Shown here: positions 23,716 through 63,970 of the stretch, in pieces
How the letters are laid out: each line of letters begins with the position of its first letter
How positions within the stretch are numbered: position 1 is the stretch's first letter
Assembly: GCA_013368315.1 (NCBI GenBank)
Contig: JAACJM010000023.1
Coordinates: forward strand, 650,372 to 714,371
DNA length: 64,000 nucleotides
Reading direction: 5' to 3'
Origin: Tetrapyrgos nigripes
Taxonomy: Eukaryota > Basidiomycota > Agaricomycetes > Agaricales > Campanellaceae
Notes under the pieces: model-generated
Told to the model about the DNA's origin: nothing
The model's input: only the letters and a program-made list of their open reading frames with translations
Database searches by the model: none
Position numbers and translations under genes: made by a program

Positions 23716-23717
23716 TA

Positions 23718-29830: not shown

Positions 29831-30310
29831 CACGCCGAAAAGGGACAAATATCCGCTCGACGGATAGGTGATCTAATATGTGCATGGAAATAAGATACAT
29901 TAGGAACCCAGATATAAGTCGAAATAGATCATGTATTAGTAAGTTAGATATCTAACCAGAAAGTTGATATATTAGGATGCCTTACGGTACATTTAATTCG
30001 TGACCAGACACATGTCATATTAGATCTTTGGAAAGAAGTACAAAAAGATTTTCAATTCGCACACCTATTCAAACAAAAGAAAGATCACCTATCAATTTTG
30101 CGGATTTGTGTCCAGAAATGGTATGTATCTGGAATCCAGATATATGTACAGATACGAGTCTCAATATATCATGCATCTGAACTCTAGATAGGTGTACTAA
30201 TAGATGATATTTATGGACTACTGATACAATGCTGGTGCGTCAGTGATTTGACGCAAGTGCGTGTCCAACGCGTCAACATAAAGACGCGTCTGCTTTAAAA
30301 TATCTTAGTT
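29831..30310. repeat. AT-rich subterminal repeat zone, left arm
   Basis: Many short direct and inverted words, including GATAGGTGATCT near 29,862 and its complement near 30,084, and GGACAAATATCCGC near 29,844 against a variant complement near 30,106. Subterminal arrays of short transposase-binding words are typical of CACTA elements. No coding sequence. The same zone in the right arm is about 63,490-63,970. Confidence 0.65.
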
Positions 30311-30417
30311 ACAAATTCCTATATACATAAGTGGTCCTACACCTTAGCAGCGATTCGAAAGCAGATTTAATAGCAGGAAAGCAAAAAAAAAAAACACCAA
30401 AAACCAAAGAAAAAGCA

Positions 30418-30890
30418 TCAAGTGCATCCCACTCTCCTGGTCTCTACAAGTCGCTTCGCCGTGGCGACGGCGTTGCGAACATCCTCCAATCCGAAATCCA
30501 GCTCCATGACAAATTCTTCCTGGTGCACCACAAGGCAATCCGGGCATGACCTGTGGATCTTGGTGGCGTATTGTAGTATCTGTCGATGGGCTTCGTGTTC
30601 TGTGATGAAAATGAGTAGTGTTCGAATTGGGAAACCCCACACGACGCACCAACGACATACGCCGTATTCCTACCTACCACCTTCACCGAATACACCAGTC
30701 TAAACCCCTTTGACTGGTGTCCCCTCCTCCATTCCCTGAGTCTGGTCTCGGGCGTGCGGCCCGTGGACCCAATTTTGTACTTGAGTTTTCCACTACCCTC
30801 ATTCAAGGCGAAAACATACACCACAGAATCCGTTCCGGAAGACGTCGATGCAGACGCAGCTACTGAAGACATCGGCATAGATGCCCTCAT
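30418..30890 (-). CDS. GIY-YIG endonuclease (T5orf172/MUG113 type), left copy
   Basis: Two exons joined by an intron at about 30,600-30,673; the stop is at 30,418. Starts at 30,890 or 30,878 are both possible. A Ser/Ala-rich leader of about 25 residues precedes VVYVFALNEGSGKLKYKIGS, which carries the GIY-like (VYVF) and YIG-like (YKIGST) elements. The arginine helix ETRLREW follows. After the intron come VEHEAHRQIL, a CPDC pair and HQEEF, where the glutamate fits the family's catalytic acid. About 130 residues, close to a complete single domain. The frame is intact in both arms, unlike the transposase. In other mobile elements such nucleases cut DNA; the role here is inference. Confidence 0.75.
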
Positions 30891-31289
30891 AGAACAGGAA
30901 CCTGGTGAGCGGACAGGGAAGACGGAAAACTTCAAAACACTGGGAAAGATTGTTTATACTCCAGAAGTGCACACATACCATGAGAGCACGTTGGAGTTTG
31001 CAACGTTGGGAGATTGGCGTGGACAGAGGTGGGAGCGGCCAGGTGTTTGTCAGTTGTTTGTCGCAGCTGTTTGTTGCGACTTCCATATATGTACGGTCAC
31101 CACCCATCCTCCAACCATCCTCCAACCATCGCCCGCTTTGGGACGAGTCAACACAACGTCCATAGGAGAAGATTGGGGATTTGGCTCAGATACACAGGAT
31201 GCAGTAATCTCCATGTTCTCAGCAGGGTCTTCAGAACGACCATCAACATCGCCTGCTTCGGGAAGAACAGACAAAACGTCCGCAGCTGA

Positions 31290-32459
31290 TTTGGTTCCTC
31301 CTGAACCTACAACTCAACCTGCCTTTGTAGCCGCCACCTGCCAACCCACCTTCCATGCATTCAGCCCCTCCTGTGCCGTCTCAACCTCCCAATGGTCGAA
31401 TGCCTGGCCCACAGCCGCATCAGCTGCCTCAGCATCTTCAGCCCTACCCATAATACATGCACCCGCCATATCCCTATCCAATGCCAGGATATTATACCCC
31501 TCCACCTGGTTCTGGCCCTGTCCACTCACCACCAAATGCCGTTGGTCAACTTTTCAACGACTCGTGAATACCAGGTTCGGGTAACGGTAATGCACAGAGA
31601 GGTAATCCCAACCAACGTGGTATGCCGAGAAACGGGGGTAACTCGGTGAACGGTGGAGGAAAACGTAATAATGCCCCGTTGCCTCGACCAGCGTGGAGTT
31701 ATGGGCCTGGTATTGGTATGGGCGGTGTGCTGATGAACGGTGGAAACTCGACAATGAATGGAGGTGGTGAAATCATAGGCCCAAGACTGAGTTCATCTAT
31801 GCGAAGACAGTCGAACACCAGTACTGGAAGCTCTGGTAACTATCGTCCTTCTCCAAATGACGATGTTGCTTCTACTGCTGTAAGTTATTCCTCATTAATA
31901 TCTGAAAGTCTGATTAACGGCCTTGCCGAAGTCATCTTCAACATCGTCATCATCAAGGTGGACGTACACTTCAACGGCCTCCTCGCAACAGCATCCCCTT
32001 CCTGCTCGTCCCGACTGGGCAGTTGGGCTAAAGCCAGATCCTACTCTGCATGCAACTAACCGCCGCCACGATCATTCTCACACCAATTCGCAGAACATGT
32101 CGCCCATATCACCTCCTCAGGCGCTGAGCGGTGGATCAAACGCAGCCAGTCTATCTGCAGTCCACTGATTTCCCTCCTCTTTCCCTCTCATCGCCTGAGA
32201 AACAGACTCCAGCCGTCGGCGGTGCATGGACAAATAATGTGACTCGCTCTCTGTTGATGACTCCACCGAGTCAGTCCATGCCTGGAAATGCACTCGTTCC
32301 TCAACCAGGCCTAACACATCTCAATGTTGTTGTTAATAACAACAATGCGATGCCACGACTCGATGACAGCTTTGACCGGTCGTCATCAAAAGCTGCCGAG
32401 TTGTACAATCCAATAGTTGTCAAGAGACCCACGCTGAACGTCCTGTATTTACCGTGGTA
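31290..32459 (+). pseudogene. Captured R3H-SUZ-like host gene fragment, left copy
   Basis: Antisense to the other arm genes. The frame passes PYPYPMPGYYTPPPGSGP and a stop near 31,565, then PLPRPAWSYGPGIGMGG, SSSMRRQSNTSTGSSG, an intron (about 31,879-31,930), LPARPDWAVGLKPD and TDFPPLSL. The Pro/Gly/Ser-rich tail fits the C-terminal half of a fungal R3H-SUZ RNA-binding protein; the diagnostic SUZ part survives only in the right arm. Introns are retained, so capture was from DNA. Contains stops and lacks the SUZ segment. Confidence 0.55.
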
Positions 32460-33060
32460 GACTTGACTACCAAACCCGAAACACCTTCGAACCGTACAGA
32501 AGATCCACGACTTTTCGTCATGGGGGTCTGCAAAGCCAATTGTTCCGTAGATGACGCCAGTAAAGCCCACTGTCCAGTTCTGCAGGGAAGCATATCAAAA
32601 ATTGTCCTGAAAGGTCATTGTCGAGGGTTATTGACACACCTTAGCAACGGCAACTACTAGACTTATATCCAGCACCAAGGGCCCTTCCCTCGCTTGGTTG
32701 ATGACCGTAGCAAATTCTGCAACTCTGCTTGTGGACACGATGTGATCGTGATAACCTGCAGGGGTGGCGGCATTAGCAGCAATTATAGACAGAGTCAGAA
32801 GAGAACTCACCGGTTGTGCTATGTAGAGCTCCCAACTCATTCTGAATGGTGCGTTGGAGATGAGCACCCGTTTCCACATCCATGCTGGCCAGTAGTTTAG
32901 CTACATGCAGGAAAAAGACATGTCAGGACTCACTGGAATAATTATGTTTTTCACAAGTACCCAACAGAGTGCAAGTGGCCTCTCGCCAGCACTGAATTTA
33001 GATACTAGAGAGATAGGTCAACGCAGACTCCGATTTGGGAAGATAGCTCACCTCGACGAT
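32460..33060 (-). pseudogene. Unknown spliced gene fragment, left copy
   Basis: Exon-like blocks on the minus strand are separated by good GT-AG introns: KPLALCW, WKRVLISNAPF with RELYIAQP, then KREGPLVLDISLVVAVAK-like and FTGVIYGTIGFADPHDEKSW. No domain recognised. Homologous blocks are in the right arm (60,990-61,540) and in partial copies at 54,930-56,000. Whether it is a broken gene of the element or another captured fragment cannot be told. Confidence 0.4.
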
Positions 33061-33080
33061 ATGTGCAGGTCCTGTGTCCG

Positions 33081-33165
33081 CAGATAGAAGCGGATTCTAT
33101 ATGCACCAGAGAACGAAACAAATTCGTCCCTGAATCGTGTAGCACCGAAACGCATTCGAATGCCA
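33081..33165. repeat. Double-hairpin repeat, copy 1
   Basis: First hairpin 33,081-33,103: nine-base arms CAGATAGAA and TTCTATaTG around GCGGA. After CACC comes a second, weaker hairpin with GAACGAA and TTCGTCC, then GTAGCACCGAAACG. Confidence 0.7.
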
Positions 33166-33559
33166 AATAGATGAGAATGAGAGGTCAAGCAAGGGGGATG
33201 AGAGTGACAGTCAAGACGACAATTGACTGAGTTGAGTCTTGACTCTTTTTGGAGGCTGGCAATGCCTGCAGGTTCTGGGAGCTTACCAGTTGGATTGAAA
33301 ATGTGACAGGACATAATGGACAGTACATGTACATATACATGAATTACGATGTTGCTTTTTCTTCTCCTTCTGGTCAAGCCCTGGAGAGATTGACAAGGAC
33401 AGATCTCCCGAAAGAGTAATCATAATGAGCTGCATGGGCTACAACCTTGTCCAAACCTATGACATGTTTTTCCGCGCTGAGAGAGGAGTATGTAGTGGCC
33501 TGGAAGTGGGGATAGCAGAGGAAAGGGTCAGAAAGAGGCTTTTGTAATGCCTGAAACAG

Positions 33560-36500
33560 TCAGACATGGACGAGGATCTCTGTACCTTGCGAAGTGGAAT
33601 GGTTTTTGATGAACTGGATTTGACCAGCTGTGAGTGAGTCACACTCTGGAGACCGATAGAAAATGTGCGAATTGCCAGGAGTTGTTTCCACAGCAGATAA
33701 GTTGTGTCCTTGAAACTTGGCGTGTCCATGTCTTTTGCCTGTCATTTCACGGTTTTCTTGGACAGGAGTAGCATTTACTGGCACGAAACATTTGTCGAAA
33801 AGAACTTTGAGCTGCTTCACTGCCTCGGGACACTCTGGACGTCAAAGCCAGCGGCGAATATTGGCTGTATGCACTAAGGACTTTATGATTGTAGATTCCA
33901 TAACACCTAAACAACAATATAAGCAGGATGATAGATGAAGACAATCATTACTCACCACCAATGTTATCATTAGTATTGATTTTCTGTAACGCTCCGACCA
34001 AGCGCTCAAACGGAAAGCACCACCAGTTGAGTATAGGCCCATAGCGTATCAAAAAATCGTAGATGTGCCCCGCTGCGTGAATATTGGGACGAGGAGCATG
34101 CTCTCTGGTATGAGGATGTATAGTGCATAAATCGTTGACCCAGCTGTCTATGAAGTCCCGGAATGCAGTCGCACGATCGGACGTCATTGTATACCGGCAA
34201 ACTATCATTATGGCCTGGAAGAGCGACATGGTATGGTCCAAGACCATCCGTAAAACATTAGGATCTTGGCTCGGCGGAGAATCTTTGTCTCCCCACAAGG
34301 TTACGAGGGCAATTGGAAGGTAGATGGTGCTGAGGGTCCTCCACTCATCAGCTTTGATAGTTCCTGCTGCGACATCACCATAGTTCTTAGGCACAGAGTT
34401 TACCCATGACGGGGTGAAAGTGTTTTTAATGACGTGACGGATGCGAGCTAAAGTTTCAGGGGAACCGGTGACAGGAAGCTGGTGATTTGAGTGAAAGGGT
34501 TGTTTTAATCTCTGCGGATGGAATCAGAGCTGCCTAAATAGCAAAAGAAATAGAAATTCTTACCCAGTTGATTAAAATTGCAACGAAGTGAGATTTTGTA
34601 CAAGCCTCTTTGTCAAAAGGAAAGTGTGTTTCCACTTGCTTTGCCTTTGATTTCTCAGAGACTCGCTTCAGGTAAAGATTGGCGACATTATCTTGGATGT
34701 CCTTTAGGGTCAACGAGAGCTGCAAACTGTGCACAACGAAGTGCAACGCATCCAGGTTGCCTGAATTAAATAGCTGGGTCCATAATTCGTCCAGCGTGAG
34801 CGCCTTGTCGCCTTTGAGGGCAATGCAGAGGGCTGTCTGAAGCTTGGCAACGCGTGAGACATCCTTTTCCTTCAACATGCAACCTGGGGGGGCAACTTCG
34901 TCCGAGTAGTCAACCCATGGCCAGTCATATGCAAATCGATGATCTTCCAAGTCGGTTTTGGTTTTCATTGCACTGGCATCCAGACGAAGGACGTGACAGC
35001 AGTGGTAGTGAACAATGCCCTCAAGGAGGCAATGCATAGTATCAATCACAAGCATCTTAGTTGGATCCCAGTACTTGAGCAGCCAGAGCGAGGACCAACG
35101 AACTCTGCGCTGCTTGAAAAGTGATTTGCGTTGTGCGACTGTCTCAGTGTCTCGATACTGCTCTGCCAGATGCCGTAGTTCATTAACGTCTCGCGTGTTC
35201 CAATGTGAGTGATTGGTACTGAAGATCTGGTTCCTGCCTCGCAATGGACACACCGTGCATATGAATTCAGAGTTGACGCCCTGGAATCCAGCTACCTTTC
35301 GCGCAGCGGGAAGATCATTGACGGATAAAAAGATTCCTGCTTCGACCACAGATTCCAGCTTGGAATCAGCTGTCTGCGAAACCTTCAAACCCGGTCTCCA
35401 GGCCGTAGCAAACTTCTCGATGACTGGGCGTACGAAGTGGTCCATTTCATCGACGTCTGGCTCTTTTGGACCAGGTATGATACTGGCATGGTACAAGTAT
35501 TTGGGAAGGTAGCAGATGGAGGGACCAAGGGCCAGGTTGGTGCAGGATATGACACCGATGGACTGAGTGGGGCCACGGTGAGTTATACCATTGGGGTTGA
35601 GAAAGTCTGTGTGGATGGAGAAAGCAAGACGGATCTTGGCACCACGATTCACGAATAAGGATCCATCAGGCCCCTTGAAATCCATTGTGAACTCGGCATC
35701 GAACACGTCTTGGATGTCATCGTGTTGTTGCCCACTGCTTATAGCATTGTAAGCATCATCAGCAGCCTTCTTCGAGCACTCGAGGTAGGTAGGATCACCA
35801 AGACAACAGGCCAGGTAGTCGTGAAAAGAGTTGACTAGGTAGGGTTTTATGGGATGGAATGTGCCATCGGAACGACGAGTCAAGAGGCTGGTGCCACAAA
35901 TGGACACACCACTCTCTCCAACAACCCGGTTGGTGCATGTCTCGGGGTAATGATACTGTCCGTTATCAATCAAGACTCCTTTATTTGTGAAGTTGCACGT
36001 CGGACAGGTAGCGTAGCTGTCGAAGCGACCTTCAGCCCCGAACCGTTTGAGAGCACCAGTGAGGGAGTTGGGCATACCAGCGATGACTTCATCCTGAGAA
36101 GGTGAGAAAGGGTACGGAGTGTTGCCAGTATTATCAGGGCGGGCAGTAGACATGCCCAATTTCACCAACATGACTGATACCCCGACGAGGAAGTTGCATT
36201 GGACGATGGACAGACCTATCACCATGTTGCAAATGACAGCAAGTAGGACAAGGACCTGATTGATTTGATCCATATAAAAGAAGTCGGATTGATGGACATA
36301 ATCTGTAAGCCAATTAGAAATGTTGAAAAAAAATCAGACAGCGACACACCTTACCTGTGTTAATTTTCACTGGGGCTTTAGGGATGCGTAAGAGCTTTAT
36401 CGTATCGGTTTTGACTAGGAGACTCCTAAGGCGTTCATGCAATTCTTTCCTCTGTTCAGCCAACTCTTCCTCCACCTTCAAGGGTGAGCTTGTGCTACTA

Positions 36501-37557
36501 CGCTGCCTCGCCTTCTTCTGCCTATCCGTTGCCTTCTCAAAATACTGCGTGACCCGTTGCAAGTTTTTCTGGGTGAAAGTATGCACCAAATCCAACCTCA
36601 AAGCTTGCTGTTCATCATCCAAGGACGAAAACCCATCACCAAAAATCAGCTCTTCCTGTTCCTGTAAGTTCTTGTTGATCCCTTCCAAATCATCAAGTTC
36701 GTTTTTATCGCAACGCGTAAATACTGAGTTTAGTTGTGGTGGGGAACAAACTGGCTTGGTGGACTGTAGGGAACCTGGGGATTGATTTGATCCTGACTGG
36801 CGTCGGGGTGATGGTGAAGAGGAGGAAGCCGATCCAAATTGACGTCCAGGTGTGCAAGATGGGGATAACGCGGCCCTGGGTGCATTCACGGTGGCTTATA
36901 CACTCTGAAGGGCATCAGATAGAGGCAAGGGACGATACGTGTGGGAGGGAGCACTAGTAGGCGGATAGGCATCGTCCGAAGAAGAAAACAGCTTGCTGTG
37001 CGAGGAACCATCTGTGCTAGTTGCAGTCATTGTCGCTGCCGTGATGAGGTTCACGATCATGTCCTCAGCATGGTCGTTGTTCGGGGTCTAAATTGCTATG
37101 AGAATAACGTTCACAGGGAGAACGAGAGTGGCACTCACATCAAGACTAAGAGCATTCATTCTACTGACTACATCAAATGCTGGCGGCGGTAGTGACTGAG
37201 CAAAGATATCAGTGGAAGGAAGGTACCATTAGCTGGTAACACTCACTGAGGTGTTAGGCGACTTGGTTCCATCAAGACTAAGTGCAGCAAGTCCATTGTG
37301 GAGATCAGATGCTAGCGGTGACTGACTGAATTTTAGTGAAGGGAAGGGTAAACATTTGACTAGTGCCACTCACTGAGGCTGAGAAAGTTCCAGGCATATG
37401 AGATTCCTCCTCAAGATTGAGACTGCTCATTCCATTAACGAGCTCAGGGGGTAACGGCGAGTGAGACTAAGAGAGATTTGAGTGGAAGTAAGTGTATTGG
37501 TTAACTTGAACTCACATCGCGAGGGGTTTCTTGACCCGAGTCACTGATATCCGACAT
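33560..37557 (-). pseudogene. tnp2/CACTA-type transposase, left copy, two nonsense codons
   Basis: A multi-exon transposase. Start at 37,557 (MSDISDSGQETPRD); three short related exons follow, then a large exon with a Ser/Pro-rich region and the coiled helix EEELAEQRKELHERLRSLL. The main exon (34,534-36,300) is an unbroken frame with CPTC, the block SIIPGPKEPDVDEM, NDLPAARKVAGFQGVN, CTVCPLRG and LVIDTMHCLLEGIVHYHC, all landmarks of the tnp2 (PF02992) family. Further exons give YGPILNWWCFPFERLVGALQ and NTN, matching the DUF4218-like C-terminus of plant and fungal CACTA transposases. TGA codons at 33,842-33,844 and 33,560-33,562 stand where the right copy has CGA. The core catalytic region remains open. 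Confidence 0.8.
37110..37500 (-). repeat. Triplicated exon-intron unit in the transposase 5' end, left copy
   Basis: Mirror of 56,546-56,873. Three consecutive short exons with similar flanking introns encode variants of S-P-L-P/A ... NG(M/L)xxL(N/S)L. See the right copy for coordinates. Confidence 0.6.
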
Positions 37558-38004
37558 GGCCTATAAAAATGGTCAACATATGTGCGTGGTATGAAAGAAC
37601 CTTACTCACATCAGGATCTGGGGATGCCCAATAGCTTCTAAAGCCCCTGGTAAGTGAGGAGAACATAGAGTAAGTGAGAATACTGAAAGACAAGCCATCC
37701 GTATAAAAAGCATGAGGAAAACAAGGTCGTACAAAAGTTTGCCATGGAGACCACCATCCTTATTCTTCAGTCCTCTGGCCTTGTATTCCTGACCACGGAC
37801 TTCTTCTCATCCAATGCCTTTGTATTGTATATATAACCTATGAAGAGAATCCCTCTAGTCTTTGAAGAGAAGGATACCTTGTACTTGAGATCGTGATGGT
37901 ATCCATACAGCTGAAGGCGAAGCTACTTCTGCTCCTTCTCAGCCCACAACAAAAACAGAGATACGAGATATACTCACTGAGTGTTCCGATTGTTAACCTT
38001 ATTG

Positions 38005-39395
38005 TCATCTATTGCGAGTCCTTCCGTGGTTGGAATAACCTGGAAGGAGATAATCCCATTAGCCTGTGAAGTGCAGGTAGAACCGCATTCTAGCTGCACC
38101 AGAACGAAACGAGAGCGCGGTAAAATAGCAGCACGTCCAAAAACATCGAAAAAGAGCTGTGTGTAGTGACGAACCAAGCTCCTCTCCCACTCCCAGCTAT
38201 GACCAGCATCTGGTAGGGAGCCCTGCAGCATTTCGGGCATTTGGTTCTCCCCAAGCTTTCATTACGTCTCTAAATCATTGCAACCGGACAGAACGAAATG
38301 ACCATTCCGGGGAAGAGAGACCAACCGGACCTTGGTCAAAATTGACGTTGGTCAAAGAGTCCTCTGGGAAAATAGAACATAAGAGATATGTATGTTCAGC
38401 TGTTGAGAAGTAGTGACTGACGAGGTTGTGGTCTTCAAGATGGTTGGGTCATAATGGGGGGACATCATGAATTGGATATAAAACCGAGTGATGGCGTTCA
38501 TCTGGGTAATGTGATTTGGCAATCCAGTGAAGACGTCTGGAAGCGGTGGGTTCAGGAGTGGAAGAGCAGAACATGAATATACAGGGACAGTCTTCAAGAT
38601 TATCTGGTCAGTGAAGGAGGAGAGTGGACGAATATGGTAGACTGGGACCGGGACACGCTGGAACAGCTCGACAACATGCAACTGGTATGTAAAGCAGCCC
38701 ATAACCTTCACTGACTTCAGTGCAGGGTCTGTAGGGGCACCGTCCATCACAGGCTTGTAGAATTGCATGTACTGAAGGAGAGCTGCCAACTCCAACCATG
38801 TACGCTGAAGACCCGCTATAGTTATATGAATTGTGAGGAAGTCGTAACGACCCTGCTTCAGCCTGTCCCGATACGCCTTGAGACGACAGACCAGTAGGTT
38901 GCAAAAAGAGCGGGAGATGGAGACTGCGTCAGCAGAATAGTTTGTTGCCTGCTGCTCGATGAAAGTGACTGCTTTCTCATAAAGAGCAAGCCTGCTGCGC
39001 TTGAGTAGGCCAGTACCCTGGAGAGATGTATTCTGATCCCACTCAACGTCCTTCTCCAAGACGTTCTCCCAGATATATAAATGATCTTTGTATGGGTGGG
39101 TCATGCCGGAATGGGAAGGGCGGCAAGGAATAACAGCAAGATGCGCCGTGAGGTCGTCATAGTATTGAGGATACTGACTGAAGTCATGTTCACCAACCCG
39201 ACTGTCTTCTGTGACTCGAATAGTTTGCCTGGAGGGAGGAGAGGGTATCTGGCTCGAGGGATAATGGCTGGTGATGAACTGGTCCCCATGAATGGCACCG
39301 ACAGCTCTGTCAGCCGCTACGAGAGCCACATAGCTGCGTTCCACATCATCTGGAGGGGCGTTTTTCGTCAAGTCGACATCAGCCAAGGAGGTCAT
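38005..39395 (-). pseudogene. Truncated paralog of the 46.7-48.6 kb gene
   Basis: The frame from 39,395 (MTSLADVDL) runs about 347 codons. It matches the plus-strand gene at 46,719 in LTAHLAVI, VPVPVYHIRPLS (there IPVYYVRILS) and VFTGLPNHITQMNAI (there VIFTGLAQNPERYVTM). It then skips about 250 residues and resumes near 38,240 with WERSLVRHYTQLFFDVFGRA, which corresponds to IERDLAFYYTSSFLDVFFRA at the other gene's end. So it is an internally deleted inverted copy. Family unknown. Its C-terminal piece runs into the inner end of the left arm. Confidence 0.65.
38073..38110. repeat. Double-hairpin repeat, copy 2 (degraded)
   Basis: Arms GCAGGTAGA and TTCTAgCTGC around a short loop (38,073-38,097), then ACC and AGAACGAAACGA. 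It sits at the inner end of the left arm, as copy 6 does at the inner end of the right arm. Confidence 0.6.
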
Positions 39396-39460
39396 CTAAG
39401 GAAAGCACGTTTAATCTCAATCAAAAGAATATTATGAAACATGCATACAGCACGTGAACT

Positions 39461-39670
39461 GGGGGTGTCAGGGAGATGGAAAAAAATTGTTTGGATTCAC
39501 AACGATGGCATAAATTGGGGGTGCCAGGGAGATGAAAAAAAAAAGACTGTTTGGATTCACGACACCAAGTCAGAACTTGCACCACACCAAGTGATGCAAA
39601 TGAGAGGACGAGTCGGAAGGTGCACCACACCAAGTGTTGCAAATGAGAGCACCAAGCTCTCAGAACAGCT
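39461..39670. repeat. Two short tandem duplications
   Basis: At 39,461-39,565 a unit of about 60 bases (GGGAGATG, A run, TGTTTGGATTCAC) is repeated twice. At about 39,575-39,650 a unit of about 45 bases (GCACCACACCAAGTG, GCAAATGAGAG) is repeated twice. Confidence 0.7.
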
Positions 39671-39845
39671 GCGATTATGAAAATGAGGCGCGTAGCGAAA
39701 CGTAGATGTCGAGAGAGGTGGACAAGAAAACAATTAGGTAAGCGCGCTGATAGCTAGCCATGGTGGAGCCTTGCCGCGTCAGACTCTTGAATCTAATTAC
39801 TTTAGTCTTTGGATTCCATCAGCTTCGACCTCGAAAGTACGCTCT

Positions 39846-39922
39846 GCAGCTGCGGCGACAAGCTGGACACCTAGACCAGCCCCTGTACAGAAGCGATGAC
39901 ACCAAGTCATTGCGCACGCAGT
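39846..39922. repeat. Inverted repeat flanking the kinase-like gene, left
   Basis: GCAGCTGCGGCGAC, AGCTGGACACCTAG and ATGACACCAAGTCA here match the reverse complement of 42,079-42,171. The pair encloses the gene at 40,103-41,939 and no other. The right partner has about 20 extra bases. Confidence 0.75.
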
Positions 39923-40102
39923 GGCGTGTTAGAAGCTGGAAGAGCGGAGCGTTGCTTAGTAGTGTTTTGCTTTTGCGTTGTTCAAGCAGAAACAAACGTC
40001 CGCTGTTTTTGTTTACCTTTACAAATGTCCACTGTTTACTCCAACAATAAATATATTATACATGACAATGTAATAAATGTGCAAAGTATTTACATGCGAT
40101 AT

Positions 40103-41939: not shown

Positions 41940-42078
41940 CAGGAGCAAGCAGGGCAGCAAATTTGTCCGTCCGTAGACACGCATTGTATTGGTGTAACTT
42001 GCCACGTGATGTGACTATACAAATTTGCAACATCATCCCCCAGCTCTCCAACTCTCCAACAGGTTGGGCTGAGCATCC

Positions 42079-45647: not shown

Positions 45648-45707
45648 TGCAGATGGGAGGAATTGACCCAGTGAAGCTACATGCTGCTCCTTTATCCTCA
45701 GTCTCAG

Positions 45708-46000: not shown

Positions 46001-46019
46001 AATTCGGATGCTAGCAAAC

Positions 46020-51343: not shown

Positions 51344-52048
51344 TGCATCCTTCTCGACGTACACATTACAGCCAAGCATATTCCTAATTATCCCTATAGT
51401 TGTCTATGATCGTCTTCTCCGAAGTCCTACGGAACAATTGTGAGCCATGGTTAGACTTCAGCTAGGGTCTAGAGGTCACTAGCCATCATGACTCAATGCG
51501 TTAGTTTCCCTGATGCGTCGATTCGCGTCCCTTCCTGCTATTTTTCTCCAGTCATAATAGACTTCTGGACGCTATTCAAGTCTTCCTCCTGCATGTGATC
51601 CCTCACCAAGTTTTCTTCCAGCTTCTATTGATCGTCGCCTCATCTTTCTTCCGAGTCTGAAGTTTTTGTTCGTCAAGTCTCACACATTAACAATTGGAAA
51701 AACCCGGTGAGCATGCCTGTTTTGTTGTGGACTGAGGATGATAAAAAAGACCTGCGAGCTCTATTGGTTCCACTCCCACAGTTCCAGGACAGGACTTGCC
51801 ACAGAATGACAATAAGCTAACAATTTGGAGTGCAGATGAATCAAAGGTGCGTATGTCTTTCTTCAAAGCTTCAATTCGTCAAGTCTCCAATTGTCTTCTT
51901 GTGCCGACGAATCAAAGGTGCATTCGTATTAAACGGCGACTAGATCTTCTAATAGCTTCATCCTCAAGCAGCTGTACCTTACACGGCCTGGTGCCCCAGT
52001 CTCAAATCTACCAGTCATTACTGCGTCTTTTCCAATTAAATACAGATC
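51344..52048. other. Spacer with boundary motifs
   Basis: It holds one full and one partial copy of the boundary motif (51,783-51,832 and 51,685-51,712). No gene. Confidence 0.4.
51783..51832. repeat. Boundary motif copy (core)
   Basis: CCAGGAC, TTGCCACAGAATGACAATAA and CTAACAATTTGGAG match the reverse of 45,747-45,790 and 37,981-38,020 and the same strand at 56,186-56,230. Confidence 0.65.
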
Positions 52049-54510: not shown

Positions 54511-54800
54511 TTACCGACTCAGACTATGTATATATGTTTACTTAACCTTTTGATGAAACACGAGAATGCTTTGGTATTGGTCGTTGACTAGTATCGGAAA
54601 ACCAGACATGAAGAGGGCTCTACCTCATTTCCACATGCTGAGCTTCACCCAGTCATTGTTTTTTACTATTAAAAGACGTTATTCTGGGTTATTGTAGAAA
54701 AAATGCGTCACGTGCGTCAAGGTCCGCGTCTCAGTAAATTGTCATCTTGACTCTCACTCCCATCCTCTCCACCCCCTTGACCTCTCACTCTCTTCTGTTT

Positions 54801-54884
54801 GGCATGCGAACGCGTTTCGGTGCTATACGATTCGAGGACGAATTTGTTTCGTTCTCTGGTGCAGATAGAATCCGCTTCTATCTG
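54801..54884. repeat. Double-hairpin repeat, copy 4
   Basis: Second-family form: GGACGAATTTGTTTCGTTC, then CAGATAGAA (54,862-54,870), loop TCCGC, TTCTATCTG (to 54,884), a perfect nine-base stem. Confidence 0.8.
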
Positions 54885-55104
54885 TGGACACAGGACCTGC
54901 ACATCGATTCTGGACAGTCGAGGTGAGTTATCTTGGGTTGACCTATCTCTCTAGTATCTAAATTCAGTGCTGGCGAGAAGCCACTTGCACTCTGTTGGGC
55001 ACTTGTGAAGTATCACGATCGCATCATATCCACGGCTGCAGACAGAGTTGCAGGATTTGCTACGGTTATCAACCAAACAAGGGAAGTCTCTTTGGCATTC
55101 AAAT

Positions 55105-55177
55105 GTGTTTCGGTGCTACACGATTCGGGGACGAATTCGTTTCTTTCTCTGGTGCAGATAGAATCCGCTTCTATCTG
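55105..55177. repeat. Double-hairpin repeat, copy 5
   Basis: Same layout as copy 4; the CAGATAGAA/TTCTATCTG hairpin lies at 55,155-55,177 with loop TCCGC. Confidence 0.8.
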
Positions 55178-56100
55178 TGGACACAGGACCTGAACATATC
55201 AATCCTGCACACTCGAGGTGAGTTATCTTCCCAAATTGGAGTCTGTGTTGACGTATCTCTAGTATCTAAATTCAGTGCTGGCGAGAAGCCACTTGCACTC
55301 TGTTGGGCACTTATGAAGAACATGATTATTCTAGTGAGTCCTGACACGTCTTTTTCCTGCATGTAGCTAAACCACTTGCGAGCGTGGATGCGGAAATGGG
55401 TGCTCATCTCCAATGCACCATTCAGAACAACTCGGAGGCTCTACATAGCACAACCGGTAAGTTCTCTGACTCTGTCTACAATTTTTGCTAATGCCGCTAC
55501 CCCCCTGCAGGTTATCACGATCGCATCATATCCACAGGTACATGCAGAGCTGCAGAGTTTGCTAGGGTCATCAACCAAACGAGGGAAGGGCACTTGCTGC
55601 CGTTGCTAAGGTGCGTCAATGACCCTCGACAATGACTTTTTAATTTTCTTCTCTGTACAGCAAACAATGAGGTCTTACATCATACGTCACAGATACCAGA
55701 TGCATTGTTGAGAAAGATTGAGGCAATCTTTTGGTACGTCTTTTTCGGCTTCCTTTCAGGGCGATTTTTAATATGCTTCCCTGCAGATTACGGACTACAG
55801 AACTGGATGGTGGTTTTTACTGGCGTGATCTACAGAACAACTAGCTTTGCAGACCCCAAGACGAAAAGTCGTGGATCTTCTGTACGGTGCTGTCTCCATC
55901 GAGTTTGTCGCTAGTACCACCTTCTCGGCTGCGTCAAACCGTTTCCTTGCCTGGACTCGACACAGGGTTGGTGCTGTGTCCAAGCTAACTCGGTTGGTGA
56001 CCCTCACCAGTGTGGATTTGTGTCTAAATTACGTCACCTGTGTCGCAGTAGCTCGTCATCTTCAACTCCCATCCCTCATCCCGCATCTGCTGGCATCCGA

Positions 56101-56175
56101 ATTCGTTTCGGTGCTACTATGTGAAAGACGAATACGTTTCGTCTTTCGGTGCAGGTAGAATGTGCTTCTACGTGC
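56101..56175. repeat. Double-hairpin repeat, copy 6
   Basis: GAAAGACGAA (56,123-56,132), loop TACGT, TTCGTCTTTC (56,138-56,147), then GGT and GCAGGTAGAA (56,151-56,160), loop TGTGC, TTCTACGTGC (56,166-56,175). Loops differ from copy 3 while the stems are conserved. It marks the inner end of the right arm. Confidence 0.85.
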
Positions 56176-56185
56176 AGGCTCCAGC

Positions 56186-56230
56186 CCTGGACTCGCAACA
56201 GATGACAATAAGGTTAACAATCAGAACACT
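56186..56230. repeat. Boundary motif copy (right arm inner end)
   Basis: ACTCGCAACAGATGACAATA and GGTTAACAATCAGAACAC. Reverse-strand relatives lie at 37,981-38,020, 45,747-45,790 and 45,871-45,898. Confidence 0.7.
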
Positions 56231-56455
56231 CAGCCAGAGGACCGAAGAATAAGGATGGTGGTCTCCATGGCAAACTTTTGTACGACCTTGTTTTCCTCAT
56301 GCTTTTTATACAGATGGCTTGTCTTTCAGTATTCTCACTTACTCTATGTTCTCCTCACTTACCAGGGGCTTTAGAAGCTATTGGGCATCCCCAGATCCTG
56401 ATGTGAGTAAGGTTCTTTCATACCACACACATATGTTGACCATTTTTATAGGCCA

Positions 56456-59400
56456 TGTCGGATATCAGTGACTCGGGTCAAGAAACCCCTCGCGATGTGA
56501 GTTCAAGTTAACCAATACACTTACTTCCACTCAAATCTCTCTTAGTCTCACTCGCCGTTACCCCCTGAGCTCGTTAATGGAATGAGCAGTCTCAATCTTG
56601 AGGAGGAATCTCATATGCCTGGAACTTTCTCAGCCTCAGTGAGTGGCACTAGTCAAATGTTTACCCTTCCCTTCACTAAAATTCAGTCAGTCACCGCTAG
56701 CATCTGATCTCCACAATGGACTTGCTGCACTTAGTCTTGATGGAACCAAGTCGCCTAACACCTCAGTGAGTGTTACCAGCTAATGGTACCTTCCTTCCAC
56801 TGATATCTTTGCTCAGTCACTACCGCCGCCAGCATTTGATGTAGTCAGTAGAATGAATGCTCTTAGTCTTGATGTGAGTGCCACTCTCGTTCTCCCTGTG
56901 AACGTTATTCTCATAGCAATTTAGACCCCGAACAACGACCATGCTGAGGACATGATCGCGAACCTCATCACGGCAGCGACAATGACTGCAACTAGCACAG
57001 ATGGTTCCTCGCACAGCAAGCTGTTTTCTTCTTCGGACGATGCCTATCCACCTACTAGTGCTCCCTCCCACACGTATCGTCCCTTGCCTCTATCTGATGC
57101 CCTTCAGAGTGTACAAGCCACCGTGAATGCACCCAGGGCCGCGTTATCCCCATCTTGCACACCTGGACGTCAATTTGGATCGGCTTCCTCCTCTTCACCA
57201 TCACCCCGACGCCAGTCAGGATCAAATCAATCCCCAGGTTCCCTACAGTCCACCAAGCCAGTTTGTTCCCCACCACAACTAAACTCAGTATTTACGCGTC
57301 ACGATAAAAACGAACTTGATGATTTGGAAGGGATCAACAAGAACTTACAGGAACAGGAAGAGCTGATTTTTGGTGATGGGTTTTCGTCCTTGGATGATGA
57401 ACAGCAAGCTTTGAGGTTGGATTTGGTGCATACTTTCACCCAGAAAAACTTGCAACGGGTCACGCAGTATTTTGAGAAGGCAACGGATAGGCAGAAGAAG
57501 GCGAGGCAGCGTAGTAGCACAAGCTCACCCTTGAAGGTGGAGGAAGAGTTGGCTGAACAGAGGAAAGAATTGCATGAACGCCTTAGGAGTCTCCTAGTCA
57601 AAACCGATACGATAAAGCTCTTACGCATCCCTAAAGCCCCAGTGAAAATTAACACAGGTAAGGTGTGTCGCTGTCTGATTTTTTTTCAACATTTCTAATT
57701 GGCTTACAGATTATGTCCATCAATCCGACTTCTTTTATATGGATCAAATCAATCAGGTCCTTGTCCTACTTGCTGTCATTTGCAACATGGTGATAGGTCT
57801 GTCCATCGTCCAATGCAACTTCCTCGTCGGGGTATCAGTCATGTTGGTGAAATTGGGCATGTCTACTGCCCGCCCTGATAATACTGCAACACTCCGTACC
57901 CTTTCTCACCTTCTCAGGATGAAGTCATCGCTGGTATGCCCAACTCCCTCACTGGTGCTCTCAAACGGTTCGGGGCTGAAGGTCGCTTCGACAGCTACGC
58001 TACCTGTCCGACGTGCAACTTCACAAATAAAGGAGTCTTGATTGATAACGGACAGTATCATTACCCCGAGACATGCACCAACCGGGTTGTTGGAGAGAGT
58101 GGTGTGTCCATTTGTGGCACCAGCCTCTTGACTCGTCGTTCCGATGGCACATTCCATCCCATAAAAACCCTACCTAGTCAACTCTTTTCACGACTACCTG
58201 GCCTGTTGTCTTGGTGATCCTACCTACCTCGAGTGCTCGAAGAAGGCTGCTGATGATGCTTACAATGCTATAAGCAGTGGGCAACAACACGATGACATCC
58301 AAGACGTGTTCGATGCCGAGTTCACAATGGATTTCAAGGGGCCTGATGGATCCTTATTCGTGAATCGTGGTGCCAAGATCCGTCTTGCTTTCTCCATCCA
58401 CACAGACTTTCTCAACCCCAATGGTATAACTCACCGTGGCCCCACTCAGTCCATCGGTGTCATATCCTGCACCAACCTGGCCCTTGATCCCTCCATCTGC
58501 TACCTTCCCAAATACTTGTACCATGCCAGTATCATACCTGGTCCAAAAGAGCCAGACGTCGATGAAATGGACCACTTCGTACGCCCAGTCATCGAGAAGT
58601 TTGCTACGGCCTGGAGACCGGGTTTGAAGGTTTCGCAGACGGCTGATTCCAAGCTGGAATCTGTGGTCGAAGCAGGAATCTTTTTATCCGTCAATGATCT
58701 TCCCGCTGCGCGAAAGGTAGCTGGATTCCAGGGCGTCAACTCTGAATTCATATGCACGGTGTGTCCATTGCGAGGCAGGAACCAGATCTTCAGTACCAAT
58801 CACTCACATTGGAACACGCGAGACGTTAATGAACTACGGCATCTGGCAGAGCAGTATCGAGACACTGAGACAGTCGCACAACGCAAATCACTTTTCAAGC
58901 AGCGCAGAGTTCGTTGGTCCTCGCTCTGGCTGCTCAAGTACTGGGATCCAACTAAGATGCTTGTGATTGATACTATGCATTGCCTCCTTGAGGGCATTGT
59001 TCACTACCACTGCTGTCACGTCCTTCGTCTGGATGCCAGTGCAATGAAAACCAAAACCGACTTGGAAGATCATCGATTTGCATATGACTGGCCATGGGTT
59101 GACTACTCGGACGAAGTTGCCCCCCCAGGTTGCATGTTGAAGGAAAAGGATGTCTCACGCGTTGCCAAGCTTCAGACAGCCCTCTGCATTGCCCTCAAAG
59201 GCGACAAGGCGCTCACGCTGGACGAATTATGGACCCAGCTATTTAATTCAGGCAACCTGGATGCGTTGCACTTCGTTGTGCACAGTTTGCAGCTCTCGTT
59301 GACCCTAAAGGACATCCAAGATAATGTCGCCAATCTTTACCTGAAGCGAGTCTCTGAGAAATCGAAGGCAAAGCAAGTGGAAACACACTTTCCTTTTGAC

Positions 59401-60553
59401 AAAGAGGCTTGTACAAAATCTCACTTCGTTGCAATTTTAATCAACTGGGTAAGAATTTCTATTTCTTTCGCTATTTAGGCAGCTCTGATTCCATCCGCAG
59501 AGATTAAAACAACCCTTTCACTCAAATCACCAGCTTCCTGTCACCGGCTCCCCGAAACTTTAGCTCGCATCCGTCACGTCATTAAAAACACTTTCACCCC
59601 GTCATGGGTAAACTCTGTGCCTAAGAACTATGGTGATGTCGCGGCAGGAACTATCAAAGCTGATGAGTGGAGGACCCTCAGCACCATCTACCTTCCAATT
59701 GCCCTCGTAACCTTGTGGGGAGACAAAGATTCTCCGCCGAGCCAAGATCCTAATGTTTTACGGATGGTCTTGGACCATACCATGTCGCTCTTCCAGGCCA
59801 TAATGATAGTTTGCCGGTATACAATGACGTCCGATCGTGCGACTGCATTCCGGGACTTCATAGACAGCTGGGTCAACGATTTACGCACTATACATCCTCA
59901 TACCAGAGAGCATGCTCCTCGTCCCAATATTCACGCAGCGGGGCACATCTACGATTTTTTGATACGCTATGGGCCTATACTCAACTGGTGGTGCTTTCCG
60001 TTTGAGCGCTTGGTCGGAGCGTTACAGAAAATCAATACTAATGATAACATTGGTGGTGAGTAATGATTGTCTTCATCTATCGTCCTGCTTATATTGTTGT
60101 TTAGGTGTTATGGAATCTACAATCATAAAGTCCTTAGTGCGTACAGCCAATATTCGCCGCTGGCTTCGACGTCCGGAGTGTCCCGAGGCAGTGAAGCAGC
60201 TCAAAGTTCTTTTCGACAAATGTTTCGTGCCAGTAAATGCTACTCCTGTCCAAGAAAACCGTGAAATGACAGGCAAAAGATGTGGACACGCCAAGTTTCA
60301 AGGACACAACTTATCTGCTGTGGAAACGACTCCTGGCAATTCGCACATTTTCTATCGGTCTCCAGAGTGTGACTCACTCACAGCTGGTCAAATCCAGTTC
60401 ATCGAAAACCATTCCACTTCGCAAGGTACAGAGATCCTCGTCCACGTCCGACCGTTTCAGGCATTACAAAAGCCTCTTTCCGACCCTTCCTCCGCTATCC
60501 CCACTTCCAGGCCACTACATACTCCTCTCTCAGCGCGGAAAAACATGTCATAG
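56456..60553 (+). pseudogene. tnp2/CACTA-type transposase, right copy, three frameshifts
   Basis: Exons: 56,456-56,497; 56,546-56,638; 56,691-56,765; 56,817-56,873; 56,925-57,657; then 57,710 onward, with the C-terminal exons to 60,553. The domains are as in the left copy (IIPGPKEPDVDEM, NDLPAARKVAGFQGVN, MHCLLEGIVHYHC, YGPILNWWCFPFERL). Compared with the left copy it lacks one G at about 57,886, has an extra A in the run 58,163-58,167 and lacks one T at about 59,553. The C-terminal codons that are TGA on the left are CGA here (60,167 and 60,449). Neither copy is whole, but their lesions lie in different places. Confidence 0.8.
56546..56873 (+). repeat. Triplicated exon-intron unit in the transposase
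   Basis: Three successive exons of 93, 75 and 57 bases, all whole codons, are separated by introns of about 50 bases beginning GTGAGTG and ending CAG. They encode SPLPPELVNGMSSLNL, SPLASDLHNGLAALSLD and SLPPPAFDVVSRMNALSLD, clearly related to one another. The intron starts and ends are also alike, so the whole exon-intron unit was duplicated. Confidence 0.7.
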
Positions 60554-60839
60554 GTTTGGACAAGGTTGTAGCCCATGCAGCTCGTTATGATTACTCTTTC
60601 GGGAGATCTGTCCTTGTCAATCTCTCCAGGGCTTGACCAGAAGGAGAAGAAAAGGCAACATCGTAATTCATGTATATGTACATGTACTGTCCATTATGTC
60701 CTGTCACATTTTCAATCCGACTGGTAAGCTCCCAGAACCTGCAGGCATTGCCGGCCTCCAAAAAGAGTCAAGACTCAACTCAGTCAATTGTCGTCTTGAC
60801 TGTCACTCTCATCCCCCTTGCTTGACCTCACCTATTTGG

Positions 60840-60921
60840 CATTCGAATGCGTTTCGGTGCTACACGATTCGGGGACGAATTTGTTTCGTTCTCTGGTGCA
60901 TATAGAATCCGCTTCTATCTG
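60840..60921. repeat. Double-hairpin repeat, copy 7
   Basis: Mirror of copy 1: GGACGAATTTGTTTCGTTC, then CATATAGAA, loop TCCGC, TTCTATCTG (60,899-60,921). One arm base differs from copies 4 and 5. Confidence 0.75.
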
Positions 60922-60989
60922 CGGACACAGGACCTGCACATATCGTCGAGGTGAGCTATCTTCCCAAATCGGAGTCTGCGTTGACCTAT

Positions 60990-61540
60990 CTCTCTAGTAT
61001 CTAAATTCAGTGCTGGCGAGAAGCCACTTGCACTCTGTTGGGTACTTGTGAAAAACATAATTATTCCAGTGAGTTCTGACACGTCTTTTTCCTGCATGTA
61101 GCTAAACTACTGGCCAGCGTGGATGTGGAAACGGGTGCTCATCTCCAACGCACCATTCAGAACGAGTCGGGAGCTCTACATAGCACAACCGGTGAGTTCT
61201 CTTCTGACTCTGTCTATAATTGCTGCTAATGCCGCCACCCCTGCAGGTTATCACGATCACATCGTGTCCACAAGCAGAGTTGCAGAATTTGCTATGGTCA
61301 TCAACCAAACGAGGGAAGGGCCCTTGGTGCTGGATATAAGTCTAGTAGTTGCCGTTGCTAAGGTGCGTCAATAACCCTCGACAATGACCTTTCAGGACGA
61401 TTTTTGATATGCTTCCCTGCAGAACTGGACGGTGGGCTTTACTGGCGTCATCTACGGAACAATTGGCTTTGCAGACCCCCATGACGAAAAGTCGTGGATC
61501 TTCTGTACGGTTCGAAGGTGTTTCGGGTTTGGTAGTCAAG
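60990..61540 (+). pseudogene. Unknown spliced gene fragment, right copy
   Basis: Exon-like blocks EKPLALCWVLVKNIII, WKRVLISNAPF, then after an intron at 61,192-61,247 a block ending GPLVLDISLVVAVAK, and after an intron from 61,361 to 61,421 NWTVGFTGVIYGTIGFADP. The introns have good ends. No start codon, no domain. Same as 32,460-33,060 in reverse. Confidence 0.4.
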
Positions 61541-61541
61541 T

Positions 61542-62520
61542 CTACCACGGTGAATACAGGGCGTTCGGCGTGGGTCTCTTGACAACTATTGGATTGTACA
61601 ACTCGGCAGCTTTTGATGACGACCGGTCAAAGCTGTCATCGAGTCGATGTGTTAGGCCTGGTTGAGGAACGAGTGCATTTCCAGGCATAGACTGACTCGG
61701 CGGAGTCATCAATAGAGAGCGAGTCGCATTATTTGTCCATGCACCGCCGACGGCTGGAGTCCGTTTCTCAGGCGATGAGAGGGAAAGAGGAGGGAAATCG
61801 GTGGACTGCAGATAGACTGGCTGCGTTTGATCCACCGCTCAGCGCCCGAGGAGGCGATATGGGCGACATGTTCCGCGAATTGGTGTGAGAATGATCATGG
61901 CGGCGGTTAGTTGCATGCAGAGTAGGATCTGGCTTTAGCCCAACTGCCCAGTCGGGACGAGCAGGAAGGGGATGCTGTTGCGAGGAGGCCGTTGAAGTGT
62001 ACGTCCGCCTTGATGATGACGATGTTGAAGATGACTTCGGCGAGGCCGTTAATCAGACTTTCAGATATTAATGAGGAATAACTTACAGCAGTACAACATC
62101 GTCATTTGGAGAAGGACGATAGTTACCAGAGCTTCCAGTACTGGTGTTCGACTGTCTTCGCATAGATGAACTCAGTCTTGGGCTTATGATTTCACCACCT
62201 CCTTCTCCTTCTCCTTCTCCTTCTCCTTCTCCTTCTCCTTCTCCTTCTCCTTCTCCTTCTCCTTCTTTTCCTTCTCTTCAAAATCCATGGATATCCTGTT
62301 ACGTGCTGCATTGTATGCAGCCTCGCGTTCTTCAATAGTCATCCACTTCTTTCCGCTTCCGCCAGTGGCATTACTACGTCCTCCATACTGCCGGCTTCAG
62401 AGGGTTCGACATCGGATGAGTCGGCGTCTTCAGTTGGGCTTGACACGGTGATCTTGTTGAGACCGACGCATAATTTTGAAGGCAGGTTGAGTTGTAGGTT
62501 CAGGAGGAACCAAATCAGCT
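61542..62520 (-). pseudogene. Captured R3H-SUZ-like host gene fragment, right copy
   Basis: Antisense to the arm's own genes. Reading on the minus strand: PAFKIMRRSQQD, the typical end of an R3H segment; KKWMTIEEREAAYNAARNRI, the SUZ-type block; a long Glu-Lys repeat encoded by the CCTTCT microsatellite; then GGGEIISPRLSSSMRRQSN, LPARPDWAVGLKPD and TDFPPLSL. The Pro/Gly-rich stretch present in the left arm is missing. Introns are retained. R3H-SUZ proteins bind RNA; this copy has no start and broken frames. Confidence 0.6.
62198..62267. repeat. CCTTCT hexanucleotide microsatellite
   Basis: About eleven units, encoding alternating Glu-Lys on the minus strand inside the captured R3H-SUZ fragment. 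Absent from the left arm because that segment is deleted there. Confidence 0.9.
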
Positions 62521-62916
62521 GCGGACGTTTTGTCCGTTCTTCCCGAAGCAGGCGATGTTGATGGTCGTTCTGAAGACCCTGCTGAGAACATGGAGATTAC
62601 TCCATCCTGTGTATCCGAGCCAAATCCCCAATCTTCTCCTATGGACGTTGTGTCGACTCGTCCCGAAGCGGGCGATGGTTGGAGGATGGTTGGAGTGACC
62701 GTACATATATGGAAGTCGCGACAAACAGCTGCGACAAACAACCGACAAACACCTGGCCGCTCCCGCCTCTGTCCACGCCGATCTCCCAACGTTGCAAACT
62801 CCAACGCGCTCTCATGGTATGTGTGCGCTTCTGGAGTATAAACTCTCTTTTACAGTGTTTTGAAGTTTTCCGTCTTCCCTGTCCGCTCGCCAGGTTCCTG
62901 TTCTACGAGGGCATCT

Positions 62917-63377
62917 ATGCCGATGTCTTCAGTAGCTGCGTCTGCATCGACGTCTTCCAGAACGGATTCTGTGGTGTATGTTTTCGCCTTGAATGAGGGT
63001 AGTGGAAAACTCGAGTACAAAATTGGGTCCACGGGCCGCACGCCCGAGACCAGACTCAGGGAATGGAGGAGGGGACACCAGTCAAAGGGGTTTAGACTGG
63101 TGTATTCGGTGAAGGTGGTAGGTAGGAATACGGCGTATGTCGTTGGTGCGTCGTGTGGGGTTTCCCAATTCGAACACTACTCATTTTCATCACAGAACAC
63201 GAAGCCCATCAACAGATACTACAATACGCCACCAAGATCCACAGGTCATGCCCGGATTGCCTTGTGGTGCACCAGGAAGAATTTGTCATGGAGCTGGATT
63301 TCGGATTGGAGGATGTTCGCGACGCCGTCGACACGGCGAAGCGACTTGTAGAGACCAGGAGAGTGGGATGCACTTGA
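62917..63377 (+). CDS. GIY-YIG endonuclease (T5orf172/MUG113 type), right copy
   Basis: Exon 1 62,917-63,121, intron 63,122-63,195 (GTAGGA...CACAG), exon 2 63,196-63,377. It reads VVYVFALNEG, YKIGSTGRTPETRLREW, VEHEAHQQILQY, CPDC and HQEEFVMELDFGLEDVRDAV. Differs from the left copy by a few substitutions and keeps all key residues. The Met used on the left at 30,890 is ACG here, which favours the start at 62,917. A frame upstream, open through a possible intron, could extend the N-terminus. The gene lies about 590 bases from the arm's outer end and points outward. Confidence 0.75.
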
Positions 63378-63489
63378 TGCTTTTTAGGTTTCTTTGGTTT
63401 TTGGTGTTTTTTTTTTTTGCTTTCCTGCTATTAAATCTGCTTTCGAATCGCTGCCAAGGTGTAGGACCACTTATGTATATAGGACTTTG

Positions 63490-63970
63490 TAACTAAGATA
63501 TTTTAAAGCAGACGCGTCTTTACGTTGACGCGTTGGACACGCACTTGCGTCAGATCACTGACGCACCAGCGTTGTATCAGTAGTCCATAAATATCATCTA
63601 TTAGTACACCTATCTAGAGTTCAGATGCATGATATATTGAGACTCGTATCTGTACATATATCTGGATTCCAGATACATACCATTTCTGGACACAAATCCG
63701 CAAAATTGATAGGTGATCTTTCTTTTGTTTGAATAGGTGTGCGAATTGAAAATCTTTTTGTACTTCTTTCCAAAGATCTAATATGACATGTGTCTGGTCA
63801 CGAATTAAATGTACGGTAAGGCATCCTAATATATCAACTTTCTGGTTAGATATCTAACTTACTAATACATGATCTATTTCGACTTATATCTGGGTTCCTA
63901 ATGTATCTTATTTCCGTGCACATATTAGATCACCTATCCGTCGAGCGGATATTTGTCCCTTTTCGGCGTG
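63490..63970. repeat. AT-rich subterminal repeat zone, right arm
   Basis: Mirror of 29,831-30,310 with a net difference of about six bases. Same short inverted words. Ends at 63,970; the last 30 bases of the window lie outside the match. Confidence 0.65.

Follow-up and report, generated by a model that had tools for sequence, protein, structure and literature searches.

A probable giant mobile element of the CACTA/EnSpm clade with gene-bearing inverted ends of 8 kb in the fungus Tetrapyrgos nigripes

Introduction

How long can the inverted ends of a cut-and-paste transposon be? In the accessible text of the sources consulted, they range from about 13 bases in a soybean CACTA element (PMC2613891) to about 1.26 kb in Galileo (PMC3573991). 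Here we describe, in Tetrapyrgos nigripes, a mirrored structure of 34 kb whose arms approach 8 kb each. It lies in the window, by which we mean the whole 64,000-nucleotide stretch of DNA that was analysed (contig C23, positions 650372-714371, of a genome of 98.5 Mb). Arms and core very probably constitute a single giant mobile element of the CACTA/EnSpm clade, whose family is present at nine insertion sites or more and flanked by 3-bp duplications where the two sides are comparable.

The nearest described relatives are fungal EnSpm/CACTA elements of the CMCT clade. As far as the accessible text of Kojima 2025 goes (PMC12730594), a C(2)C, H(3-4)H arrangement occurs in the clade to which EnSpm, Transib and RAG1 belong, and the fungal elements have CAC..GTG termini, 3-bp duplications and a transposase with C(2)C and H(3-4)H, all of which recur here. 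In contrast to those elements, the ends described in this study are 8 kb long and hold a transposase together with a GIY-YIG nuclease, a multigene core lies between them, and the terminal bases are CACGCC and not CACTA. Giant size has precedents: it is shared, along with the 3-bp duplication, by the soybean CACTA element Tgmt* (20.5 kb; PMC2613891) and, along with extra open reading frames (ORFs), by CACTA families of Chondrus crispus (16-20 kb, 4-5 ORFs; Kojima 2013, as cited in PMC6431247). However, the inverted ends of Tgmt* measure 13 bp against 8 kb here, and the accessible part of that account describes no long gene-bearing ends (PMC2613891). A literature search, with most subscription papers outside its scope, found no account of the present family or of CACTA ends that contain a transposase. 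New here are ends of 8 kb that carry genes, and a multigene core.

Results

Self-comparison of the window with blastn resolved the mirror into three inverted blocks: 29830-31325 against 62479-63971 (97.1% identity), 31756-32320 against 61646-62205 (96.8%) and 32356-37779 against 56233-61646 (98.9%). The blocks are colinear and together span 29830-37779 and 56233-63971, the arms being unlike at about 31326-31755. A first-pass annotation, made from the sequence alone, had noticed a 34-kb inverted structure with 8-kb arms running from CACGCC at 29,831 to GGCGTG at 63,970; both the structure, with 18.5 kb of core between the arms, and its mirrored borders were borne out. The 24 terminal bases have a full match in the window at 29831 and 63970 only and the next best place agrees at 17/24, in keeping with the same annotation's remark that the inner arm borders lack similar ends. 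The main parts are as follows.

29831..37779, plus strand: left inverted arm, 7.95 kb (self-blastn; outer end at 29831)
56233..63970, minus strand: right inverted arm, 7.74 kb (self-blastn; outer end at 63970)
29831..29854, plus strand: element terminus CACGCC..., 24/24 identical to 63970-63947 on the other strand
63947..63970, minus strand: element terminus ...GGCGTG (terminal-base match and junction list)
37780..56232, no strand: core between the arms, 18.5 kb (colinearity with other contigs)
29426..29830, plus strand: left flank, an interrupted copy of a short dispersed repeat (compared with five other copies)
63971..64000, no strand: right flank, end of contig C23, equal to the flank of the C307/C481 insertion and not to the left-flank site

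When the outer 470 bases were used as a genome query, at least 51 matches were obtained, and 24 end junctions (the two of the window and 22 others) were read, with 17 different flanks. The outer end falls at the base equivalent to 29,831 in 21 of the 22 other junctions, the remaining one (C44) being one base short. The first bases are CAC in 22 of the 24, CAT in C48, and C44 is without the first base. Since there are 17 flanks and three apparent two-sided pairs, the junctions correspond to 9 to 14 insertion sites. Two short pieces that also reach the element end, C252:2857 and C127:3222, lie outside the 24 junctions read. Genomic copies ending elsewhere were what the first-pass annotation had named as speaking against an element; the copies instead share their end and differ in their flanks. 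Its argument that abrupt, matching outer ends favour an element is upheld by the shared ends, the different flanks and the 3-bp duplications described below.

The annotation had also remarked on the lack of a target duplication, and on this point it was not borne out: a 3-bp duplication, AAA, exists, its right half being on contig C181. The left flank of the window is an interrupted copy of a dispersed repeat with at least 38 other matches (87-98% identity), and the five other copies read run from CGGCCTAAA directly into GGGCCTCGTAA. The element end on C181 has the outward flank AAAGGGCCTCGTAA, that is, the missing remainder of the window's left repeat with AAA doubled. The left end of the window therefore sits in a short repeat and probably has its true right side on C181, as judged by this match of flanks. 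Three giant insertions in all have a 3-bp duplication, two of them paired across contigs and one, C2, read directly, with AGT on both sides and both ends inside one 1.4-Mb contig. The second cross-contig pair joins C231 (flank ..GGACG) to C496 (outward ACGCGAATCC..) with the duplication ACG, by way of intact copies on C167 and C63, which were read among 28 places listed. No partner end was found for C155R (C56 and C6 read, among 40 places listed), and a search for the empty site of the C307/C481 insertion returned only C307, C481 and more distant matches. In the short relatives the duplication was exact in all six read (ata, ata, ata, tca, aat, cta). These relatives, on C252, C138, C296, C75, C253 and C122, are non-autonomous, 660 bp long, and have 218-bp inverted ends about 80% like those of the giant element.

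Is the plan of arm, core and arm a property of the element or of contig C23? A probe that spans the left inner border (36400-38100) found 15 strong places among the matches listed, the window's two included. Five of them cross the border (C23, C155, C2, C496 and C492), eight have their break point no more than about 10 bases away (C23 right, C481, C231, C307, C492, C151, C48 and C344) and two stop before it (C513 and C534), so that the inner arm border is common to 13 of the 15. Both inner borders are present on the single 23.6-kb contig C492, whose left core was not among the matches listed (39 of 110 candidates scored). C2 has both ends, the order arm-core-arm and part of the core, and is internally deleted to 20.5 kb. 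C48 has inverted arms of 6 kb (405242-411278 and 430334-424298) that are 99.87% identical to each other and 93-95% identical to those of the window; its right outer end was not found. One-ended insertion, an initial candidate explanation of C44, C48, C153 and C32, was dropped for C48 after its second arm was found and is still a candidate for the other three.

The copies also agree on what lies beyond the right inner border. C307, C344 and C481 continue from the right arm into the core, and all right-type copies read at this border (the window, C307, C344, C231, C481 and C48) enter the same core. Its right half is colinear in C307, C481, C492 and, with an interruption, C344, and parts of it are found in C231, C151, C2 and C48; the left part, 37950-44393, varies among copies. 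The arm-core-arm plan is therefore native to the element and is not an artefact of contig C23. C344 is colinear from the right end to its stop at window position 46,704, broken by an insertion of 11.7 kb. This insertion is flanked by a 9-bp duplication, tctgttgca, and its inverted ends, of about 65 bp, are imperfect (77%); the core copy on C236 has a 12-kb gap with a 9-bp overlap, perhaps due to the same family.

The right side of the window copy needs separate consideration, because the 30 bases after 63,970 differ at a single base from the flank shared by C307 and C481. The inner part of the right arm (56233-59499, 3.3 kb) has 13 mismatches to the left arm (about 99.6% identity) and 59 to C307 (about 98%); in the outer part (59500-63970) the order is reversed, with 113 mismatches to the left arm against 4 to C307. 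Together, the flank and this switch of similarity at about 59.5 kb suggest that the right arm probably takes its outermost 4.5 kb from another copy. The window copy is thus probably chimeric in the assembly, judging by these alignments, with this 4.5-kb segment and the 30-bp flank most likely joined on from the C307/C481 insertion. The simplest account is that the assembly changed copies at about 59.5 kb; its rival is a true crossover, in which ectopic exchange fused the left end of one copy with the right end of a different one. Galileo chimeras, in the accessible text on them (PMC3573991), have flanks that differ and lack a duplication, together with an abrupt change of similarity, and both traits are seen here. 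A real recombinant is nevertheless unlikely, given that contig C23 ends at window base 64000, 30 bp past the element (an annotated protein is placed on a contig of 714,371 bases), that the same flank runs on in two other contigs, and that the left side finds its counterpart, complete with a duplication, on C181. Of the two borders that the first-pass annotation took as element ends, the left one stands and the right one is probably a join to another copy.

Each arm contains ORFs for a transposase and a nuclease.

33951..37500 (approximate, several exons), minus strand: tnp2-type DDE transposase gene, left arm (Pfam PF02992)
56510..60060 (approximate), plus strand: transposase gene, right-arm copy (ORFs 56925-57695, 57882-58214, 58165-59475 and 59479-60060)
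30421..31313 (approximate), minus strand: T5orf172 (GIY-YIG type) nuclease gene, left arm (annotated protein P0126 and ORFs)
62491..63374 (approximate), plus strand: T5orf172 nuclease gene, right-arm copy (mirror ORFs)

Both genes of the left arm point toward the outer end. The left transposase includes an open exon of 599 amino acids (34537-36333), with the tnp2 domain PF02992 at E=1.7e-10 (40.9 bits, cut-off 28.6), and the left nuclease matches T5orf172, PF10544, at E=9.9e-6 (26.4 bits, cut-off 20). The annotation's statement that each arm holds a transposase and a nuclease accordingly stands for the left arm through these domains, and for the right arm only as mirrored ORFs, with a broken transposase frame. 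Across 22 aligned transposases, D587 (in DF), D684 (in DLPAARK), C703 and C706 of P0002 are invariant. The next exon, 33951-34523 in the left arm, holds IHAAGH followed by FER and is present in both arms; the pattern H-x3-H then FER was matched in 15 of 122 sequences, of which two, P0038 and P0092, are not of this motif, and many of the remaining sequences are incomplete. The protein therefore appears to have a DDE triad with C(2)C and H(3-4)H between the second D and the last E, this E being predicted. A structure model of the transposase reached a mean predicted local distance difference test (pLDDT) of 66 with the last exon left out. The 29 best Foldseek matches of the model (E up to 0.0052) are all RAG1 or its lancelet relative, at low TM-scores of 0.13-0.34. 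A second structural comparison returned helical bundles only (residues 227-350) and no RAG1 row; being filled by the helical bundle, it is neutral on the RAG1 match. NCBIfam gave nothing for seven proteins.

The core carries genes of its own, among which one, here called gene X, recurs throughout the genome.

46719..48566, plus strand: gene X, probably spliced, multicopy (genome matches; P0122 and P0123; a Dendrothele bispora homologue)
49144..51295, minus strand: WD40-like gene, weak (Pfam below cut-off)
40106..40381, minus strand: kinase-like fragment, weak (Pfam Pkinase E=3.9e-4, below cut-off)
38355..39395, minus strand: ORF of 347 amino acids, distant paralogue of gene X (BLASTP E=6e-8, 26%)

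Gene X has 34 matches in the genome: five, counting the window, are at 97-100% and 22 at 89-93%, and some are partial. The WD40-type Pfam matches in the core are all below the curated cut-offs (best E=1.6e-5), and copies of the WD40-like region at 71-76% identity lie near gene X in many other contigs. Frame-wise Pfam scans gave tnp2 and weak WD40 only, and scans of single ORFs added T5orf172 and the weak kinase; they covered the element apart from the plus strand of the arms, 37780-42000 and 54600-56232 on the plus strand, and 47000-48500 and 51500-56232 on the minus strand. As to the core genes that the first-pass annotation had listed as foreign to simple CACTA elements, WD40 and kinase remain as matches below cut-off, and zinc finger and coiled coil were not confirmed. 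In Dendrothele bispora, a homologue of gene X and one of the transposase have locus tags six apart and lie on contigs of equal length, a proximity which suggests that the association of the two genes is probably older than T. nigripes.

Other repeats were noted in passing. Within the core, 40642-43649 is an inverted pair of related ORFs (75-88%), with similar sequence on C236 and C15. Outside the element, 22070-22563 and 23231-23724 form a 494-bp inverted repeat (94.9% identical), and 13956-14450 is a palindromic and tandem-like repeat, both seen in the self-blastn.

Discussion

CAC..GTG termini, 3-bp duplications and a transposase of the tnp2/Transposase_21 type are all present, and together they fit the CACTA/EnSpm clade and place the element in its EnSpm/CACTA part. 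Several observations weigh against one giant mobile element. A complete 34-kb copy was not seen on any other single contig, and many copies have one end in view or are cut off where their contig finishes; C269, C192 and, in part, C127 resemble the outer 470 bp over some of its length but lack the complete end. As assembled, the two sides of the window differ (AAA on the left, TAT on the right). The cross-contig pairings depend on short stretches of dispersed repeat, 11 bp for C181 and about 40 bp for C496, so that insertion at the same base into two repeat copies is conceivable, and in two of the three giant cases pairing and duplication are not independent. No empty allele of a giant copy was among the loci read, which leaves present mobility presumptive. 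The closely spaced short subterminal repeats typical of CACTA elements were sought as 6- to 8-mers in the outer 470 bp and were not clearly above 300 shuffles, degenerate repeats being possible. The right transposase frame is broken at 57.9-58.2 kb relative to the left copy, either naturally or by sequencing error, and the RAG1 matches combine low scores with a model lacking the last exon.

Could the locus belong to a different clade, as a Plavaka element or an integrated virus-like element? The transposase homologues P0054 and P0113 carry the Plavaka Pfam domain, and the size is unusual. But Plavaka termini are given as TGT..ACA or CATCA..TGATG in the accessible text of PMC12730594 and those found here are CACGCC..GGCGTG, and no viral Pfam family reached the cut-off in the frames scanned, which cover part of the core strands. 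We regard a different clade as very unlikely, and viral integration as such was rejected with no viral genes in the frames scanned.

There is only a slim chance that the structure is a one-off inverted segmental duplication of a simple 8-kb transposon region, with a core of ordinary host DNA. No inner ends were found, the core genes are unlike those of simple transposons, and relatives with gene X at about 90% identity have one transposase-like region per unit among the matches listed, all of which would suit such an event. Against it, copies whose flanks differ share the inner border and core, C2, C48 and C492 speak for arm-core-arm copies at other sites, the outer ends are shared and 3-bp duplications are present; inverted duplication more plausibly explains how the arms of the family arose. 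The first-pass annotation had kept inverted duplication as the alternative to an element; the two are not exclusive, in that the element stands and inverted duplication is the probable source of its long ends.

In bacterial composite transposons such as Tn5 and Tn10, two inverted transposase-bearing arms flank cargo, and each arm is a mobile insertion sequence with an inner and an outer end. That two independently mobile inverted 8-kb elements carry the core in this manner, as the transposase and nuclease ORFs of each arm and the position of the arms around other genes might suggest, has a slimmer chance still, given that no terminus-like sequence lies at the inner borders (17/24 at best), where two ends per arm would be expected, and that the right-type copies read there all go into the same core. 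The first-pass annotation's "giant composite CACTA-like element" is therefore retained as a CACTA-clade element and not as a composite in the bacterial sense, no inner ends having been found.

How, then, could a single giant element of the CACTA/EnSpm clade have acquired such ends, and what keeps them alike? In the relatives with gene X at about 90%, the single transposase-like region is followed, among the matches listed, by short stretches like the window's left core, which makes it likely that the left arm is original and that the right arm arose by inverted duplication of an ancestral end with transposase and nuclease. The arms of C48 and the inner arms of the window are each more alike within the copy than between copies, and this suggests that gene conversion keeps the arms of a copy alike. 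C231 gave a mixed result and speaks in part against conversion from arm to arm: its inner half is matched by C155R, another insertion, at 99.7-100% and by its own partner C496 at 99.5-100%, whereas in the outer half the partner is closer (99.1-99.5% against 98.4-99.2% for C155R). The pattern is thus not general.

From these comparisons a mechanism can be sketched. The predicted RAG1-like tnp2 transposase would act on the outer ends, 29,831 and 63,970, by cut and paste. The ancestral transposase-plus-nuclease end would have been duplicated in reverse to give the second arm, and gene conversion from arm to arm would let the two transposase copies back each other up; that the nuclease may start the exchange between arms is a guess. 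The genes of the core would be genes of the element, perhaps for accessory DNA-binding proteins. We tentatively propose, as an idea more speculative than the element itself, a self-proofreading palindromic transposon, in which 8-kb gene-module ends repair each other, possibly at the initiative of the nuclease, around a swappable multigene core.

Ends that hold the transposase make a large palindrome, which would be hard for hosts and assemblers to handle, and copying from one end to the other offers a transposon a means of preserving its enzyme. If true, this would be a testable case both of concerted evolution within a mobile element and of the growth of a fungal DNA transposon to tens of kilobases. 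It is also a warning that assemblies can misjoin such elements.

Comparison with other long-ended elements helps to place this one. Galileo, of the P superfamily in Drosophila, shares long ends that grow by recruiting internal sequence as well as chimeric copies with unlike flanks, but in the accessible text its longest ends, of about 1.26 kb, occur in copies without a transposase ORF, and its duplications are of 7 bp (PMC3573991). Teratorn, a piggyBac/herpesvirus element, is likewise giant, with long inverted repeats around a unique region; it differs, as far as the accessible text goes, in its piggyBac-like transposase, its 18-bp terminal repeats with additional internal ones and its viral genes (PMC6431247). 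With Tn5 and Tn10 the element shares inverted transposase arms around cargo, the difference being that only outer ends were found here. By this analogy, a self-proofreading transposon of the kind proposed might perhaps be viewed as a eukaryotic counterpart of composite transposons, in design and not by descent.

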